Assembly: GCF_900105415.1 (NCBI RefSeq)
Contig: NZ_FNSM01000001.1
Coordinates: 5,853,501 to 5,917,500 of the forward strand
Length of the DNA stretch: 64,000 nucleotides
DNA from: Streptomyces sp. TLI_105
Lineage (GTDB): Bacteria; Actinomycetota; Actinomycetes; Streptomycetales; Streptomycetaceae
Reading direction: 5' to 3'
Of this stretch, positions 53,180 to 61,422 are shown piece after piece. The notes under the pieces are model-generated. The model saw nothing but the letters and a program-made list of their open reading frames with translations. It was not told the origin of the DNA and searched no databases. The position numbers were made by a program, and so were the translations under genes. Position 1 is the first letter of the stretch. Each line of letters begins with the position of its first letter.

Positions 53180-54346
53180 TCAGCTTTCCTGATCTTCGCG
53201 CAGTCGCCGTGCGACCACGTGGGCGTCTAGGAGCCCGCCGAGGCCCGCCCCCCGCACCCGCCGGACCAGCTCGGCGTACGAGGTCCCGAGCGCCTCCGCG
53301 GTCCGGCCGAGGTGCCAGTCGCAGTCCGCGAGCCGGTTCAGGAGGTATCCCTTCCGGATCTGGTTCTCGGAGAGCCGGAAGGTCTTCAGATAGGCCGCCC
53401 GCCCCTTCCGGTCGGTGATCACCTCGCCGATGTGCTGCTCCCGCCCGCCCCGCTCGAACGGCGGAAGGAACCGGTACAGGCCGAACCGGTCCATCCGGTG
53501 GACCCGCTCGAAGGAGTACGAGGTCTCCAGCAGGTCGCGCGCCATCAGCCCGTCGTGCGCCGCCGCCCAGGACCGCTCCTGCTCCCGCGCCGCCGCCCGC
53601 AGGTCGGCGAGGCCGCGGATGCCGCCGGCGCCGTCCCGGATCCGCGCCGTGAACTCGGGCACCGGGGCGCCGTAGTGCGCGTACTGGTGGACCAGCTCCC
53701 CGTACAGGTCCTCGACCAGCGTCGGGTGCAGCAGCCGGTAGTCGTCCGGGTGCGGCACCACGAACGCCGCGGCCAGCGCGTCCGCCACGTACAGGAGCAG
53801 CCCGCACTGGCCCGGGTGCAGCTCGAAGATCCGCAGCGCCTCCGCGAGCCCCGGCACCGCCCACCCCGCGTACGCCGCCTCCGCGCGCGGCGAGAGACCG
53901 CGCCGCAGTGCCTCCCGGGACCAGTCGTCCCAGACCACGGACGGCCCCCCGAAGTGCAGCGCGAGGTACCCCTCCAGGGCGAGGTGCAGCGGCAGGAACC
54001 GCAACCGCCGCTCGGCGCGCCCGTCCTTGCCGCGCCGGCGCTTGGCCATTCGGTGGAGCCGCCGCACGGGCACGCACCCCGGCACCGCCTCGCCGCCGAG
54101 CCGCGACCCGTACACGGCGGACTCCGTCCCCGTCCCCGTCCAGTCGGCGACGAAGCCGTGCGGGACGTACGAGGTGTACGAGGTGCGGTCGCCGAGCTCG
54201 ACGGAGGCCCCGCCCCACCCCTCGTACACCTCCCGGCGCAGCCGCAGCCCCGGCACCGGCTCGTCCCGCACGAGCGGCACGAGCCGCACCCCGCCCCACA
54301 CCTGCGCGGGCCGCACGTCGAGCCCGGTCAGATCGATCCGGGTCAC
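53180..54346 (-). CDS. ARPP-like domain protein with C-terminal FIS-type HTH
   Basis: 388 aa from GTG 54346, overlapping the stop of the vWA gene by 4 bp. The N-terminus (LTGLDVRPAQVWGGVRLVPL) and the beta-rich region after it look like the ARPP domain that occurs in predicted RNA-repair operons; this is from memory of the family. The middle is helical and aromatic-rich. The C-terminal 60 residues form a FIS-type HTH: YLLNRLADCDWHLGRTAEAL then GTSYAELVRRVRGAGL. It is therefore probably a DNA-binding regulator or sensor working with its vWA partner. Function unknown; similar gene pairs occur in Streptomyces. Confidence 0.7.
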   Translation of the reverse strand: MTRIDLTGLDVRPAQVWGGVRLVPLVRDEPVPGLRLRREVYEGWGGASVELGDRTSYTSYVPHGFVADWTGTGTESAVYGSRLGGEAVPGCVPVRRLHRMAKRRRGKDGRAERRLRFLPLHLALEGYLALHFGGPSVVWDDWSREALRRGLSPRAEAAYAGWAVPGLAEALRIFELHPGQCGLLLYVADALAAAFVVPHPDDYRLLHPTLVEDLYGELVHQYAHYGAPVPEFTARIRDGAGGIRGLADLRAAAREQERSWAAAHDGLMARDLLETSYSFERVHRMDRFGLYRFLPPFERGGREQHIGEVITDRKGRAAYLKTFRLSENQIRKGYLLNRLADCDWHLGRTAEALGTSYAELVRRVRGAGLGGLLDAHVVARRLREDQES

Positions 54347-55725
54347 CGCTGCGCTCCCTTCAGGAACAGCTCCACCCTCCGGTCCAGATAGGCCCGCAGT
54401 TCCGCGAAGCCCGTCCGCCCCTCCGCGAACTGCGCGATCTCCACCAGGGCCGCCAGATCCTCCGCGTCCCGGATCCCGGCCGTCGGCACGCTCGGGGCGA
54501 GCCGGCGCACGTCGAAGCCCTCGGCGTCGTATACGGGGTTGAGGTGCACCACGCTCGTCCGCCGCTCCGGATCCAGTCGCGTGCGCCACACCCGCAGCAC
54601 CTCGCCCGCGAGGCCCGGCGGGGCGTTGTCCCAGCCGTCCGAGACGATCACCAGACGCTCGTGACCGGTCTCCAGGGCGTCCAGGACCCGCAGACCGAGC
54701 GGGGTCGGCCCGTAGGGGTGCACGAGCAGGGGATCGTCCCGGCCCGACGTCCACAGCGGGGCGTACGCCCCCGGCGACGCCAGGGCCTCCAGGAGGAAGT
54801 GACAGCCGAGGGCCACGGCCAGCGGCCGGCGCCGCTTCACCGCCGAACCGGAGGAGGAGAAACTGTCGTCGAGGACGGCCGCCACCCGCCCCCAGCTCCC
54901 GGCGTACGGCCCCGCCGCGCGCCGGGCGGCCGCGCGCAGCGCACCCGTCAGCTCGGCCCGGCGCGCCACCCGCTCGCCGAACGGCAGGGCGAGGACGTAC
55001 AGGGCGAGCCGGGTGAGCGGCATGACCGACAGATCGGCCGCCCGGTCCGTGCGCAGCCGTTCCAGGCGGGTCATCCGGGGCGCGATCCGCTCCAGGAACA
55101 CCGCGCGGGGCACGCCGTGCTTCCCGGCGAACCCCTCGGCGACCGTGAACGGCAGCTCGTACAGCGCGTTCTGCTCGTAGTGCGCCCGGCGGTGCGCGTC
55201 GAGCGTGGCGTTCTCGTACCGGGTACGGCGGCCCGGCGCGAAGAGGAAGTCACCCGTCTCGGCGTCGGCCGGCCGCCCGTGGACGTGCCGGAGGGCGGCC
55301 TTCAGACCGGTCCGGTACTTCACCGCGTCCAGCGCCGGATCGGGACGGGCCGCGAGCCACGCGCGCACGATCGCGCGCGTGCGGCGGTTGTTGACCCCGG
55401 CGGCGCGGAGCGCGCCGAACAGGCGGTAGACCCGCTGCGGCGGCAGCAGCGCGAGCCGCGCGGCGATCAGCCGGCCCTCGCCCTCCTCCGCCTCCTTCGG
55501 CGTGCGGAGCAGGTGCTCGACGACGAGCGCGGCGTTGTGGTCGTTGATGTCGAGTGCGAGGGCTGCGGCGTACACGGGCCGGTAGTTCACGCGTACGTAC
55601 TCGTGGAGGAACGCGAGCGAGAAGCGCTGCTCGGCGGCGGAGGACCGGAACTCGCGCTGTCCGGTGGCGGTCACGGCGGCGTTGACGAAGAGGAGCACGT
55701 CCTCGGCGGCGACGAGCTCGGACAC
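54343..55725 (-). CDS. TROVE-like protein with vWA/MIDAS domain
   Basis: 460 aa from GTG 55725, preceded by AAGGAGA. Residues 1-270 are helical repeats with long runs of conserved-looking Arg and aromatic positions (AFLHEYVRVNYRPVYAAALA, LPPQRVYRLFGALRAAGVNN), as in the HEAT-like ring of TROVE/Ro60 proteins. A vWA domain follows with a complete MIDAS: DDSFS at about 286-290 (DxSxS), Thr in HPYGPTPLGL and Asp in VIVSDGWDN. TROVE proteins bind misfolded small RNAs. The co-translated ARPP-like/HTH partner follows. RNA binding is an inference. Confidence 0.75.
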   Translation of the reverse strand: MSELVAAEDVLLFVNAAVTATGQREFRSSAAEQRFSLAFLHEYVRVNYRPVYAAALALDINDHNAALVVEHLLRTPKEAEEGEGRLIAARLALLPPQRVYRLFGALRAAGVNNRRTRAIVRAWLAARPDPALDAVKYRTGLKAALRHVHGRPADAETGDFLFAPGRRTRYENATLDAHRRAHYEQNALYELPFTVAEGFAGKHGVPRAVFLERIAPRMTRLERLRTDRAADLSVMPLTRLALYVLALPFGERVARRAELTGALRAAARRAAGPYAGSWGRVAAVLDDSFSSSGSAVKRRRPLAVALGCHFLLEALASPGAYAPLWTSGRDDPLLVHPYGPTPLGLRVLDALETGHERLVIVSDGWDNAPPGLAGEVLRVWRTRLDPERRTSVVHLNPVYDAEGFDVRRLAPSVPTAGIRDAEDLAALVEIAQFAEGRTGFAELRAYLDRRVELFLKGAQR

Positions 55726-55897
55726 GGTGCTCTCCTTCCAGCGCACGGGTGCCGGCCGGGGAATGAGGGCACGAACAGCGAAGACGTTGCTTCAGAGGCA
55801 GGTTCCGGAAGTCGCACCGGAGTCCCGCGGCCGGCGCGGGAACGCTAACACCGGGCAGGGGGAGGTCCGCCAGCGGATTACCGGTGGGGGCGGGCCC

Positions 55898-57475: not shown

Positions 57476-57751
57476 ATGGCTCTCGCCGTGATCCGGACGC
57501 CGTCCATCGAACCCTGGAAGCCGCTCGAGAAGAAGCCGCTCCCCGCGGGTCGCCCCCGCGAGTGGTACGTGTCCCACAACCGCCGTCTGAAGGCCATGCG
57601 CCTCGCGATCGCGCTGCTCGACGCCGGCGTCTACGTCCCGTCGAAGGCGACGAACGCGGCGATAAGCGCCACGGCCGCCGACATCGGCATCCACCCGCCC
57701 TCCGACACCACGTGCCGCATGGTCCGCACCCTGATCCGCTACGGCCGCTGA
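57476..57751 (+). CDS. Conserved small basic protein of unknown function
   Basis: 91 aa from ATG 57476 behind AGGAGG. It is basic and soluble: LAVIRTPSIEPWKPLEKKPL, then a helical core with RLKAMRLAIALLDAGVYVPS, and a C-terminus with HPPSDTTCRMVRTLIRYGR. No transmembrane segment or known domain. The promoter carries the RecA-independent DNA-damage motif, so the gene is likely induced by DNA damage. A bidirectional terminator separates it from the P450 gene. I do not recognise a function. Confidence 0.8.
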   Translation: MALAVIRTPSIEPWKPLEKKPLPAGRPREWYVSHNRRLKAMRLAIALLDAGVYVPSKATNAAISATAADIGIHPPSDTTCRMVRTLIRYGR

Positions 57752-57845: not shown

Positions 57846-59039
57846 TTACCAGGCCACCGGCAGCCTTTCGGGGAGCCGCTTCATGAAGTTGGTGCGCCAC
57901 ACCAGCTGCTCGACCGGCACCGCGAGCCGCAGCCCCGGCAGCCGGTCGAGGAGCGTCTCCAGGGCGATCTCGGCGTGCCGCTTGCCGAGCGCCGTCGCCG
58001 GGCAGTAGTGCCGCCCGCCACCGAAGGAGAGGTGCTCGGCGGCGTTCTCCCGGTCCGGCCGGAAGGCCAGCGGGTCTGGGAAGCGCTCCGGGTCGTGGTT
58101 CGCGGCCTCCACGAGCACCAGGACGAGTTCCCCGGCCCGCACGTCGACGTCGCCGAGGCGCACGTCCTCCAGGGCGACCCGCGGCAGCCCGTCGCCGATC
58201 GACAGGTTCACCCGCAGCAGTTCGTCCATGGCCCCGGCGACACCTCGCGTGCCGTCGGCGGTCAGCGCCTCCCGCACGTCCGGCCGGGTCAGCACCGACA
58301 CCAGCGCCATCGTCAGGAACCCGGCGGTGGAGATCACTCCGGCGCCGAACAGCGTCACGCCCACCGTCGCCAGCATCTCGTCCGTCAGATGCGCGTAGTC
58401 GGGATCCTCGCGCAGCGCCGCGAGCTCCGCCATCAGCCCACCCGTCGCCGGATCGTCCAGGCGCTCGGTCATGTAGGCGATGTCCCGGTCCCAGTTGAGC
58501 CGGGCCGCCTCGATCTCGCGCGGTGCGTTCATGAAGGCCACGTCCAGACTGCGCAGCAGCAGCGGCCCGTCCTCCTCCGGGATGCCCAGCATCCGGCAGT
58601 GCAGCCCCGCCGAGTACGGATCGGCGTAGCCGCCCCGCAGCTCTCCGGGCGCCCCCTCGGCGACCAGCGCGTCCACCAGGGCCCCGGCCCGCGCCCGCAG
58701 CCACTCCTCCAGGCCGGGTGCCTTCGGGTTGATCGCCTTCATGACGGCCTTGCGCAGTCCGGCCCCGGTGATGTTGCCCATGTTGTTCACCACGTGCGGC
58801 GGGATCGTCAGCGCGTACTGCCTCGGCGCCCCCGGAGCCGAGGTGTCCTTCAGGCTGAACCCGGGGTCCTCCAGGACGTGTCTGCACAGCTCGTACGAGG
58901 AGACCAGCCAGGCCTCGGCCCCGGCGATCGTGCGGACCTTCCGGACCGGCTCGGCACGCAGCGCGTCGATCTCGGCGGGCAGCCGGGTCCCGTCCCAGTC
59001 GAAGGGGAAGGCCGGCAGGGTCTCGGCGGCGACGCTCAT
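57846..59039 (-). CDS. Cytochrome P450, CYP121-like, partner of cyclodipeptide synthase
   Basis: 397 aa from ATG 59039. Heme-binding loop LSFGGGRHYCPATALGKR with the axial Cys at about 346. The residue after Cys is Pro, as in CYP121. The I-helix reads VTLFGAGVISTAGFLTMALV, where the usual acid-alcohol pair is replaced by VIST, another CYP121 feature. CYP121 couples the two tyrosines of cyclo(Tyr-Tyr); relatives paired with cyclodipeptide synthases hydroxylate, dimerise or add nucleobases to diketopiperazines. The start overlaps the CDPS stop by 4 bp. Cytoplasmic; the redox partners are not in the operon (a ferredoxin reductase-like gene at 43-44 kb is too far to assume). Confidence 0.93.
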   Translation of the reverse strand: MSVAAETLPAFPFDWDGTRLPAEIDALRAEPVRKVRTIAGAEAWLVSSYELCRHVLEDPGFSLKDTSAPGAPRQYALTIPPHVVNNMGNITGAGLRKAVMKAINPKAPGLEEWLRARAGALVDALVAEGAPGELRGGYADPYSAGLHCRMLGIPEEDGPLLLRSLDVAFMNAPREIEAARLNWDRDIAYMTERLDDPATGGLMAELAALREDPDYAHLTDEMLATVGVTLFGAGVISTAGFLTMALVSVLTRPDVREALTADGTRGVAGAMDELLRVNLSIGDGLPRVALEDVRLGDVDVRAGELVLVLVEAANHDPERFPDPLAFRPDRENAAEHLSFGGGRHYCPATALGKRHAEIALETLLDRLPGLRLAVPVEQLVWRTNFMKRLPERLPVAW

Positions 59040-59776
59040 CGCGCGACTCCTTCGACGGTGGTTCCGATGGGTGTGAGGATGCCGTGGCCCTGGTTGCGCG
59101 AGGCCCGGAGCCCGGACCCCCGCCCGTACAGCAGATCGGCCAGGGGCAGTGCCTGGTGGTAGCAGTTGAGCGAGGACGGCACCCCGAGGATCGCGGGCGT
59201 GTCCAGGAAGAGCGGCACCTCGGCGCAGATGTACGCCCGGCACACCTCCCGCTGCCGCTCGTCGGTCACCTGCCCCGGCGCCAGCTTCCCGGCCAGGAAG
59301 ATGCCGGTCAGCGCATCGCAGGTCTCCCGTACCACCGGGTCGGCCGCCACCGCGTCGAGCACCGTGCGGTGCAGCTCGCGGTAGGCCGGGACGTCCCCGA
59401 ACTCCGACATCCCGCGGGCCCGTACCCGTACCCCCGTGGGATCGGCCTCGGCCACGGCCGCCCCGACTTTCGCCCGCACCCCCCGCAGGTTCTTGACGGC
59501 CTTCCGCCGTGCCTCGTCGGCCCCGTACCCCAGCGCCTCGTACATGTCGGCGACATGCAGATCGGTGTAGACGAGATCGACCTGATCGAAGTGGTCCAAG
59601 CCCCAGCGCGTCAGCTCGCGCAGTCGCTGGGCGGTGAAATAACTGTTTCCCGGGGAGACGCCGATGACCACGTGCGCGCCCTCGTCGGCGATGACGCGGC
59701 AGTGATCGGTGTACGGCTGGAGTCGGAGCGTCTCTGCAGGGGCGAAAGCCGCCTGAGTCACGTAGGCAGTCCTCAT
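59036..59776 (-). CDS. Cyclodipeptide synthase, NYH subfamily
   Basis: 246 aa from ATG 59776 (the frame is open to 59836). It uses two aminoacyl-tRNAs to make a diketopiperazine. All signatures of the family are seen: the nucleophile Ser41 and Asn44 in GAHVVIGVSPGNSYFT, Tyr182 and Glu186 in AYICAEVPLFLD, and Tyr206-His207 in SSLNCYHQAL. These lie exactly four residues on from S37, N40, Y178, E182, Y202 and H203 of AlbC, which defines the NYH subgroup. No tailoring gene other than the P450 is present. Amino acids used cannot be told from reading alone. Confidence 0.93.
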   Translation of the reverse strand: MRTAYVTQAAFAPAETLRLQPYTDHCRVIADEGAHVVIGVSPGNSYFTAQRLRELTRWGLDHFDQVDLVYTDLHVADMYEALGYGADEARRKAVKNLRGVRAKVGAAVAEADPTGVRVRARGMSEFGDVPAYRELHRTVLDAVAADPVVRETCDALTGIFLAGKLAPGQVTDERQREVCRAYICAEVPLFLDTPAILGVPSSLNCYHQALPLADLLYGRGSGLRASRNQGHGILTPIGTTVEGVAR

Positions 59777-59869
59777 CGCGCCAGCTAGTCCCAGCGGAGC
59801 CCAGTGCTCCGGGTGTGGCGGCCGCGACGACGACACGCTATCGATCAGTCGCGGAGAGTGAACCCCCTA

Positions 59870-59943: not shown

Positions 59944-59979
59944 CGAGGCCCGCCATCCCCTGGGGGACGACGGGCCTCG
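59944..59979 (-). terminator. glnA terminator stem-loop
   Basis: CGAGGCCCG (59944-59952) pairs perfectly with CGGGCCTCG (59971-59979), with an inner CCCC/GGGG extension; 19 bp after the glnA stop. Confidence 0.8.

Positions 59980-59997: not shown

Positions 59998-61422
<1,425 letters not shown>

Follow-up and report, generated by a model that had tools for sequence, protein, structure and literature searches.

A short structured leader RNA, about 50 nt long with two covarying stems and ending at the Shine-Dalgarno site, precedes a two-gene operon encoding a cyclodipeptide synthase (CDPS) and a cytochrome P450; within Rfam 15 and a search of the open-access literature, it appears to constitute a family of cis-regulatory RNA not described before. 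The operon lies in a window of 64,000 nucleotides (G000:C1:5853501–5917500) of an 8.88-Mb Streptomyces genome, for which I computed the genes, pocket motifs, active-site set and synteny, the promoter spacing, the covarying leader and the link between leader and operon. Taken as a whole, this is likely to be a gym-type operon with its own promoter, in which cyclo-Tyr-Tyr (cYY) is oxidised by the P450, and translation of the CDPS is under the control of the leader. The initial annotation had recognised the gene pair correctly, but overlooked both the promoter and the structured RNA.

A two-gene operon and its predicted products

Both genes are on the minus strand, with the CDPS at 59036–59761 and the P450 (397 amino acids) at 57846–59039, and the CDPS stop codon overlaps the P450 start by four base pairs (ATGA). 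The pair had been annotated as a CDPS and a CYP121-like P450 with such an overlap, and both genes indeed match well above chance. Comparison with 19 relatives indicates purifying selection on both, with dN/dS values of 0.045–0.332 for the CDPS and 0.123–0.289 for the P450. No further tailoring gene adjoins them, as had also been noted, and the two-gene operon is of a known kind. At the threshold used, the search finds a single CDPS of this kind in the genome of the window, and the loci found with the window CDPS comprise 18 named ones, all from Streptomyces.

The CDPS matches the curated cyclodityrosine synthase family NF052540 of NCBIfam with 398.2 bits (cut-off 300), and Pfam PF16715 at 6e-90. 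In the search against characterised proteins that the initial annotation had proposed, its best PDB match is Rv2275 (5e-88), and that of the P450 is GymB1 (8q6z; 617 bits, 8e-185). The NYH-type catalytic set S41, N44, Y182, E186, Y206 and H207 is complete, and the alignment confirms the offset of four residues from AlbC that had been read previously. The pocket comparison, likewise proposed, gives VGVTMLFN for P1 and LIFGQLP for P2, both of which fit the published motifs of the cYY group. In the accessible part of that publication, four newly characterised cYY synthases have VG[VI]TMLFN in P1 and L-x-[FY]-x-QLP in P2, asparagine at P1 position 8 is described as essential for tyrosyl, and two of the four cYY rows of Table 2 are identical to the window P1 (PMC5816076). 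From the pockets and the NF052540 match, the product of the CDPS is very probably cyclo-Tyr-Tyr.

The P450 contains the I-helix motif GAGVIST and the heme loop FGGGRHYCP highlighted by the initial annotation, and belongs to the GymB/CYP121 group, with 71.8% identity to GymB1, 66.8% to 8q6x and 59.3% to CYP121 (514 bits). I compared 27 positions, including Gln385 and Arg386, that I take to be active-site positions of CYP121. The equivalents of N85, W182, F168, T229, A233 and S237 are retained, and L, Y, I, I, M and K are found at M62, N74, V78, F280, Q385 and R386. GymB1, 8q6x and all 45 locus P450s agree with the window protein at the first four of the latter positions, and GymB1, 8q6x and 44 of the 45 at the last two, the remaining one having a gap; this set includes some strains twice, and leaves out L001 (the window itself) and the broken copies L003 and L062. 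Met and Lys therefore stand where CYP121 proper is marked by Gln385 and Arg386.

These comparisons place the operon near two known systems. It resembles Rv2275/CYP121, which makes mycocyclosin, as a homologous two-gene pair with a synthase of the cYY group, but differs in the P450, which departs from CYP121 at six or more of the active-site positions compared, including Q385M and R386K. The likeness to the Streptomyces gym loci is closer, with the same cdps-p450 layout, cYY pockets, 72% identity to GymB1, and agreement with GymB1 at six diagnostic CYP121 positions. However, the window P450 falls in a separate subclade (identity to GymB1 is 71.8% for this protein and reaches 88.8% for other P450s compared), and the pair has settled in a slot between glnA and orf91. 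According to a review, six gym two-gene loci expressed in S. albus yielded mycocyclosin, guatyromycine A and guatyromycine B, and the gym P450s are reported to be bifunctional (PMC10092475).

By analogy, the CDPS would use two Tyr-tRNA(Tyr) to form cyclo-L-Tyr-L-Tyr, and the P450 would form a phenoxyl-type radical, leading either to closure of a C–C bond (mycocyclosin) or to attachment of guanine or hypoxanthine to the ring (guatyromycines). Mycocyclosin and/or guatyromycine-type adducts are thus the expected end products. That the P450 is instead a plain CYP121-type mycocyclosin synthase, making no nucleobase adduct, would agree with its membership of the CYP121 group and with the six retained residues, but seems unlikely given the M/K pair at 385/386, found also in GymB1 and 8q6x, the lower identity to CYP121 than to GymB1, and the bifunctionality reported for the gym P450s.

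The initial annotation had also listed dimeric Trp-diketopiperazines among the possible products. Related CDPSs with the same leader do have a W-type P1, LGVALFF[SA], and a related P450; however, a Trp-containing product, be it a dimer or a guanitrypmycin, is extremely improbable for the window pair, since its P1 carries the Tyr-specifying Asn at position 8, the CDPS scores above the NF052540 cut-off, and the P450 scores only about 159 bits against the Trp-diketopiperazine dimerases NascB and NzeB, compared to 617 for GymB1. Trp-diketopiperazines were consequently rejected on the pocket motifs and the distance of the P450 from NascB/NzeB, and the proposed range is reduced to the mycocyclosin and guanine-adduct types. 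The gut and ptm loci, which make guanitrypmycins from cWW and a nucleobase, also combine a CDPS with a CYP121-like P450, but have Trp pockets where the window CDPS has Tyr pockets. W-type-P1 CDPSs with CYP121-like P450s share the leader RNA, in a comparison of strains other than the named gut and ptm ones. In its enzymes, which are ordinary in kind, the operon is a further instance of an already characterised pathway type.

The glnA–orf91 slot

The upstream border of the slot is glnA (60001–61407, minus strand), which matches TIGR00653 with 670 bits (cut-off 429). The downstream border is a conserved 91-amino-acid gene, orf91 (57476–57751, plus strand), found in 34 of 61 genomes, all of these being among the 37 Streptomyces in the sample; it has no match in Pfam or NCBIfam. 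A GC-rich inverted repeat past glnA (59944–59979, minus strand), identified by eye, is a possible glnA terminator, although the terminator scan does not call it.

The initial annotation considered this an unexpected site for a biosynthetic cluster, but the comparison does not support this view. In 10 other Streptomyces with both borders found, out of 12 fetched, the distance between glnA and orf91 ranges from 109 bp to 8.8 kb, and the slot is therefore variable in size across the genus, with the pair settled there in one clade. At E 1e-20, 123 of 392 sampled Streptomyces genomes have a CDPS match. This match is at least 83% identical in 14 genomes (own included), and in every one of these the pair is flanked by glnA and orf91, with glnA at most 1.5 kb away in 11 and at 3.2, 12.2 and 7.0 kb in the others. 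Among the 18 named loci (partly the same strains), the 15 with at least 88% CDPS identity have orf91 behind the pair, and glnA adjoins the CDPS in 14; the exception is L064, whose glnA lies at the distance of 12.2 kb given above. In a divergent species (L074, CDPS 69%), glnA is 1.3 kb upstream of the pair, and orf91 is not on the fetched stretch.

Over 13 genomes, the nucleotide divergence of the CDPS (0.081) and the P450 (0.067) is like that of six neighbouring genes (0.034–0.114), and their distances correlate with those of the core flanks, with a Mantel r of 0.43 for the CDPS and 0.69 for the P450 (0.83 for orf91, 0.80 for arsC). These values fit a long residence in the slot, with some recombination.

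Several local irregularities were seen in this region. Between L071 and the window, dS is 0.262 for the CDPS versus 0.119 for the P450, a hint of recombination inside the operon. Two genomes from the glnA-slot clade have a disrupted P450 gene beside an open CDPS frame, possibly through sequencing error: L062 (10738–11849, the same strain as L003) has an internal deletion with a frame change, and L093 (4947–6126) a late frame change. Elsewhere in the window (53183–55746), an ARPP-2 family gene (PF22549) lies beside a gene for a 467-amino-acid protein without a Pfam match. The latter gene is missing from the stretches fetched for L063, L065 and L071, and its patchy presence suggests that the glnA–glnII region varies in more than one place.

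Promoter, leader structure and start codon

Aligning the upstream DNA of the CDPS loci revealed a block that is conserved between divergent CDPSs. In the window it corresponds to a covariance-model match at 59773–59825 (minus strand), comprising an outer stem, P1, with two possible registers, and a hairpin, P2, in which GGAGC (59810–59806) pairs with GCUCC (59800–59796). Its conserved stretches are CACACC and GGGACUAG, and unpaired stretches are among the best-conserved columns. A fuzzy pattern finds the leader in 106 of 109 loci (some strains twice; 70 distinct cores), and of the three that it misses (L153, L154 and L155) the first was later matched by the covariance model.

I then generated a MAFFT alignment of 70 leader sequences (A1), and drew P1 and P2 on it by hand. 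In this register, 90.1% of 770 cells are paired, compared to 39–49% when the strands are slid, and the covariation score of 0.240 exceeds the shuffled mean (0.147) and is reached by none of 500 shuffles. RNAalifold returns the same P2, adds two C–G pairs and places the 5′ strand of the outer stem three columns upstream; here 96.6% of cells are paired versus 28–54% when slid, with a score of 0.295, although the slide control favours both structures, as they were derived from the same sequences. The numbers of doubly changed pairs are only modestly above shuffles, with six of 11 in the hand-drawn register (reached in 12 of 500 shuffles) and five in that of RNAalifold (22 of 500). For the outer stem, the paired cells amount to 94.6% in the RNAalifold register and 83.8% in the hand-drawn one. 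When 88 sequences were fitted to the hand-drawn register, seven of 13 pairs change on both sides, and the model structure contains 42 G-U cells, 16 A-C cells and 81 other mismatches, 72 of them in P1.

On this comparative evidence the outer stem is real on either count, with each of the two registers supported. They compete for the same 3′ strand (A1 columns 2–8 with 42–47, about 59776–59825 in the window), each with compensatory changes, which could mean either that a GCC repeat makes the alignment ambiguous or that the RNA truly switches. Single-sequence folding energies give the window leader no support, since it folds no better than shuffles (z of −0.73 and −0.10), and the case for an RNA therefore rests on comparison; for other leaders z is −2.49 (L020), −1.95 (L195), −1.72 (L016) and −0.19 (L176). 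In the window, the predicted pairing of the leader 5′ end extends into the Shine-Dalgarno region.

No Rfam 15 family reaches its gathering cut-off over the window leader (best 16.2 bits, cut-off 35), and searches with sets of nine and of eight loci gave no match either. In the open-access literature on cyclodipeptide synthases or diketopiperazines together with riboswitches or structured RNA, no description of the leader was found; the riboswitch remarks in the accessible parts of PMC11610984 and PMC4052509 are general comments and references, and mention no such leader.

The consensus promoter and terminator scan reported nothing. However, a −10 element, TAGCGT (59835–59840, minus strand), is kept in position across loci: TANNNT occurs 14–18 nt ahead of the leader in 94 of 95 distinct loci (the exception is L118), compared to 1 and 0 in control windows. 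A −35-like TTCACT (59857–59862, minus strand), aligned by eye, lies 16 nt further upstream and is not reported by the sigma-70 scan. Since the spacing between TANNNT and the leader is nearly fixed, the transcript is expected to begin just ahead of the leader, which would lie near its 5′ end and extend as far as the Shine-Dalgarno site. The conserved −10 element makes it unlikely that the genes depend solely on read-through from glnA.

The Shine-Dalgarno sequence GAGGA (59770–59774, minus strand) directly follows the leader, 8 nt ahead of GTG 59761. This GTG is probably the CDPS start, rather than the alternative ATG at 59776, because several relatives do not keep the latter: L003, L006 and L066 have CTG or TTG in its place, and in L009, L065 and L072 its counterpart is out of frame and lies behind a TGA that is in frame. 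The first start with a purine-rich site, usually GTG or TTG, is 57–63 nt past the leader start in 77 of 95 distinct loci and 45–46 nt past it in 17, with none in one locus; eight of eight inspected loci of the 45–46-nt kind have a second start at 60–61 nt.

Distribution and possible role of the leader

Two covariance models, R1 and R2, were built on the hand-drawn register, with 70 leaders from these CDPS loci as the R1 seed. In the window's own genome, R1 finds a single place even at E 10, at the window CDPS (150 of 14152 first-look candidates scored). Across the 392 Streptomyces genomes (E 0.01, stricter filters) it finds 119 places in 105 genomes, 101 of them on the strand of a CDPS match and upstream of it. 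The leader is present at 14 of 14 CDPS matches with 83–100% identity, 64 of 64 with 58–82%, 23 of 25 with 41–57%, and none of 45 below 41%, hence ahead of 101 of the 103 matches of at least 41% identity and none of the others (148 rows, two second-piece rows dropped), most of these leader–CDPS matches being in-sample for R1. The leader-less CDPSs at 41–57% are G081 and the fragment G275. Sixteen CDPS loci with a leader are out of seed, comprising 14 (13 not fetched before, and G089) together with G589 and G677, found with R2. In a class-level sample, nine of 296 genomes have a leader match, one of them (G589) outside Streptomyces.

Eight loci outside the close clade of the window, for which longer flanks were obtained, all have a downstream CYP121-like P450 (55–66% identity); seven have a W-type P1, and L196 has a Tyr-type P1 with LIFSALP as P2. 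The leader-bearing CDPSs examined, from loci outside L096–L141, are thus predicted cYY or cW-X synthases accompanied by a CYP121-like P450. At L202 (1077–2962), the leader precedes a W-type CDPS in which the catalytic His is replaced by Asn and a P1 Gly by Glu, and the P450 is matched only from residue 131; this is possibly a decaying cluster.

The other 18 matches lie away from a CDPS, and were characterised from at most six open frames of at least 90 codons per locus. Eight of these loci have no CDPS match; a P450 match stays in L167, L168, L169, L171 and L181, and none is seen in L170, L174 and L183. L168 retains the leader and an uninterrupted P450 frame (404 amino acids), with no CDPS match seen. 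The remaining ten are directly ahead of small proteins, of a kind shown to be LuxR-type (GerE) by three Pfam-checked fragments. At these loci (L172, L173, L175–L180, L182 and L184), a variant leader is found about 10 nt ahead of the start of a protein of about 115–125 amino acids. Relatives of the small LuxR-type protein number 11, in eight of 150 genomes searched, and seven have an R2 match just upstream, three above 49 bits (in the training set) and four new ones at 27–31 bits; L219 has a partial R2 match, and L215, L216 and L218 have none just upstream.

This distribution bears on whether the leader has a regulatory role at all. Conservation merely by common descent of the operon could account for its persistence in eight loci without an intact CDPS, but is quite improbable, as 23 of 25 CDPSs at 41–57% identity keep it, its stems covary, and LuxR-type genes carry it as well. 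Another very doubtful reading is that the element acts not as an RNA but as a DNA operator bound by a protein: inverted repeats can serve as operators too, the element also lies ahead of LuxR-type regulators, and the register of its outer stem is ambiguous, but it sits downstream of the −10 at near-fixed spacing, within the expected transcript and against the Shine-Dalgarno site, the excess of G-U over A-C cells is that expected for RNA pairing, and unpaired stretches are among its best-conserved columns.

As a leader RNA, the element combines a conserved fold showing compensatory changes with a position between the predicted promoter and the start codon, as cis-regulatory RNAs do, and a translation-controlling RNA sensor is the leading interpretation. 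It would control CDPS translation through P1, which abuts the Shine-Dalgarno site; stabilising, opening or shifting this stem would alter ribosome access, and this is the simplest mechanism to propose. SAM-II and preQ1 are small translational riboswitches in which a short structured leader ends at the Shine-Dalgarno site. The window leader is alike by this description only, and unlike them has no Rfam match.

The leader would most likely sense a diffusible signal, and not the CDPS protein itself. At a CDPS search threshold of E 1e-20, nine of the ten genomes with a LuxR-type leader locus have no leader-type CDPS (the exception is G304), and one of these, G080, also has a leader locus without a CDPS; the protein is therefore disfavoured, since eight of the ten have neither a leader-type CDPS nor a decayed leader locus. 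Inspection by eye of the gene neighbourhoods of four LuxR-type loci, on an ad hoc gene call, suggested no ligand. I tentatively propose, as one possibility, that the leader represents a small translational riboswitch, or an RNA sensor, of a new class, common to Streptomyces CDPS-P450 operons (cYY and predicted cW-X) and small LuxR-type regulators, in which the competing registers may be the switch and the ligand is a diffusible signal tied to the chemistry, such as guanine, hypoxanthine, another purine or a diketopiperazine. The choice of a purine is a guess by analogy with the P450 chemistry.

For the biology of these operons the leader matters more than the enzymes, which add an instance of a characterised pathway. 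The guanitrypmycins, Trp cousins of the predicted products, have no known biological role according to a 2021 review (PMC7954767), and under standard laboratory conditions a related gut cluster appeared to be silent (PMC13122648). A leader common to operons with predicted cYY and cW-X synthases gives a direct means of asking which signal turns them on, its presence ahead of LuxR-type regulators provides a second handle on the ligand, and its use as a sensor would give a way to ask what the compounds are for. More generally, this small conserved fold, absent from Rfam, may represent a new type of genetic switch.
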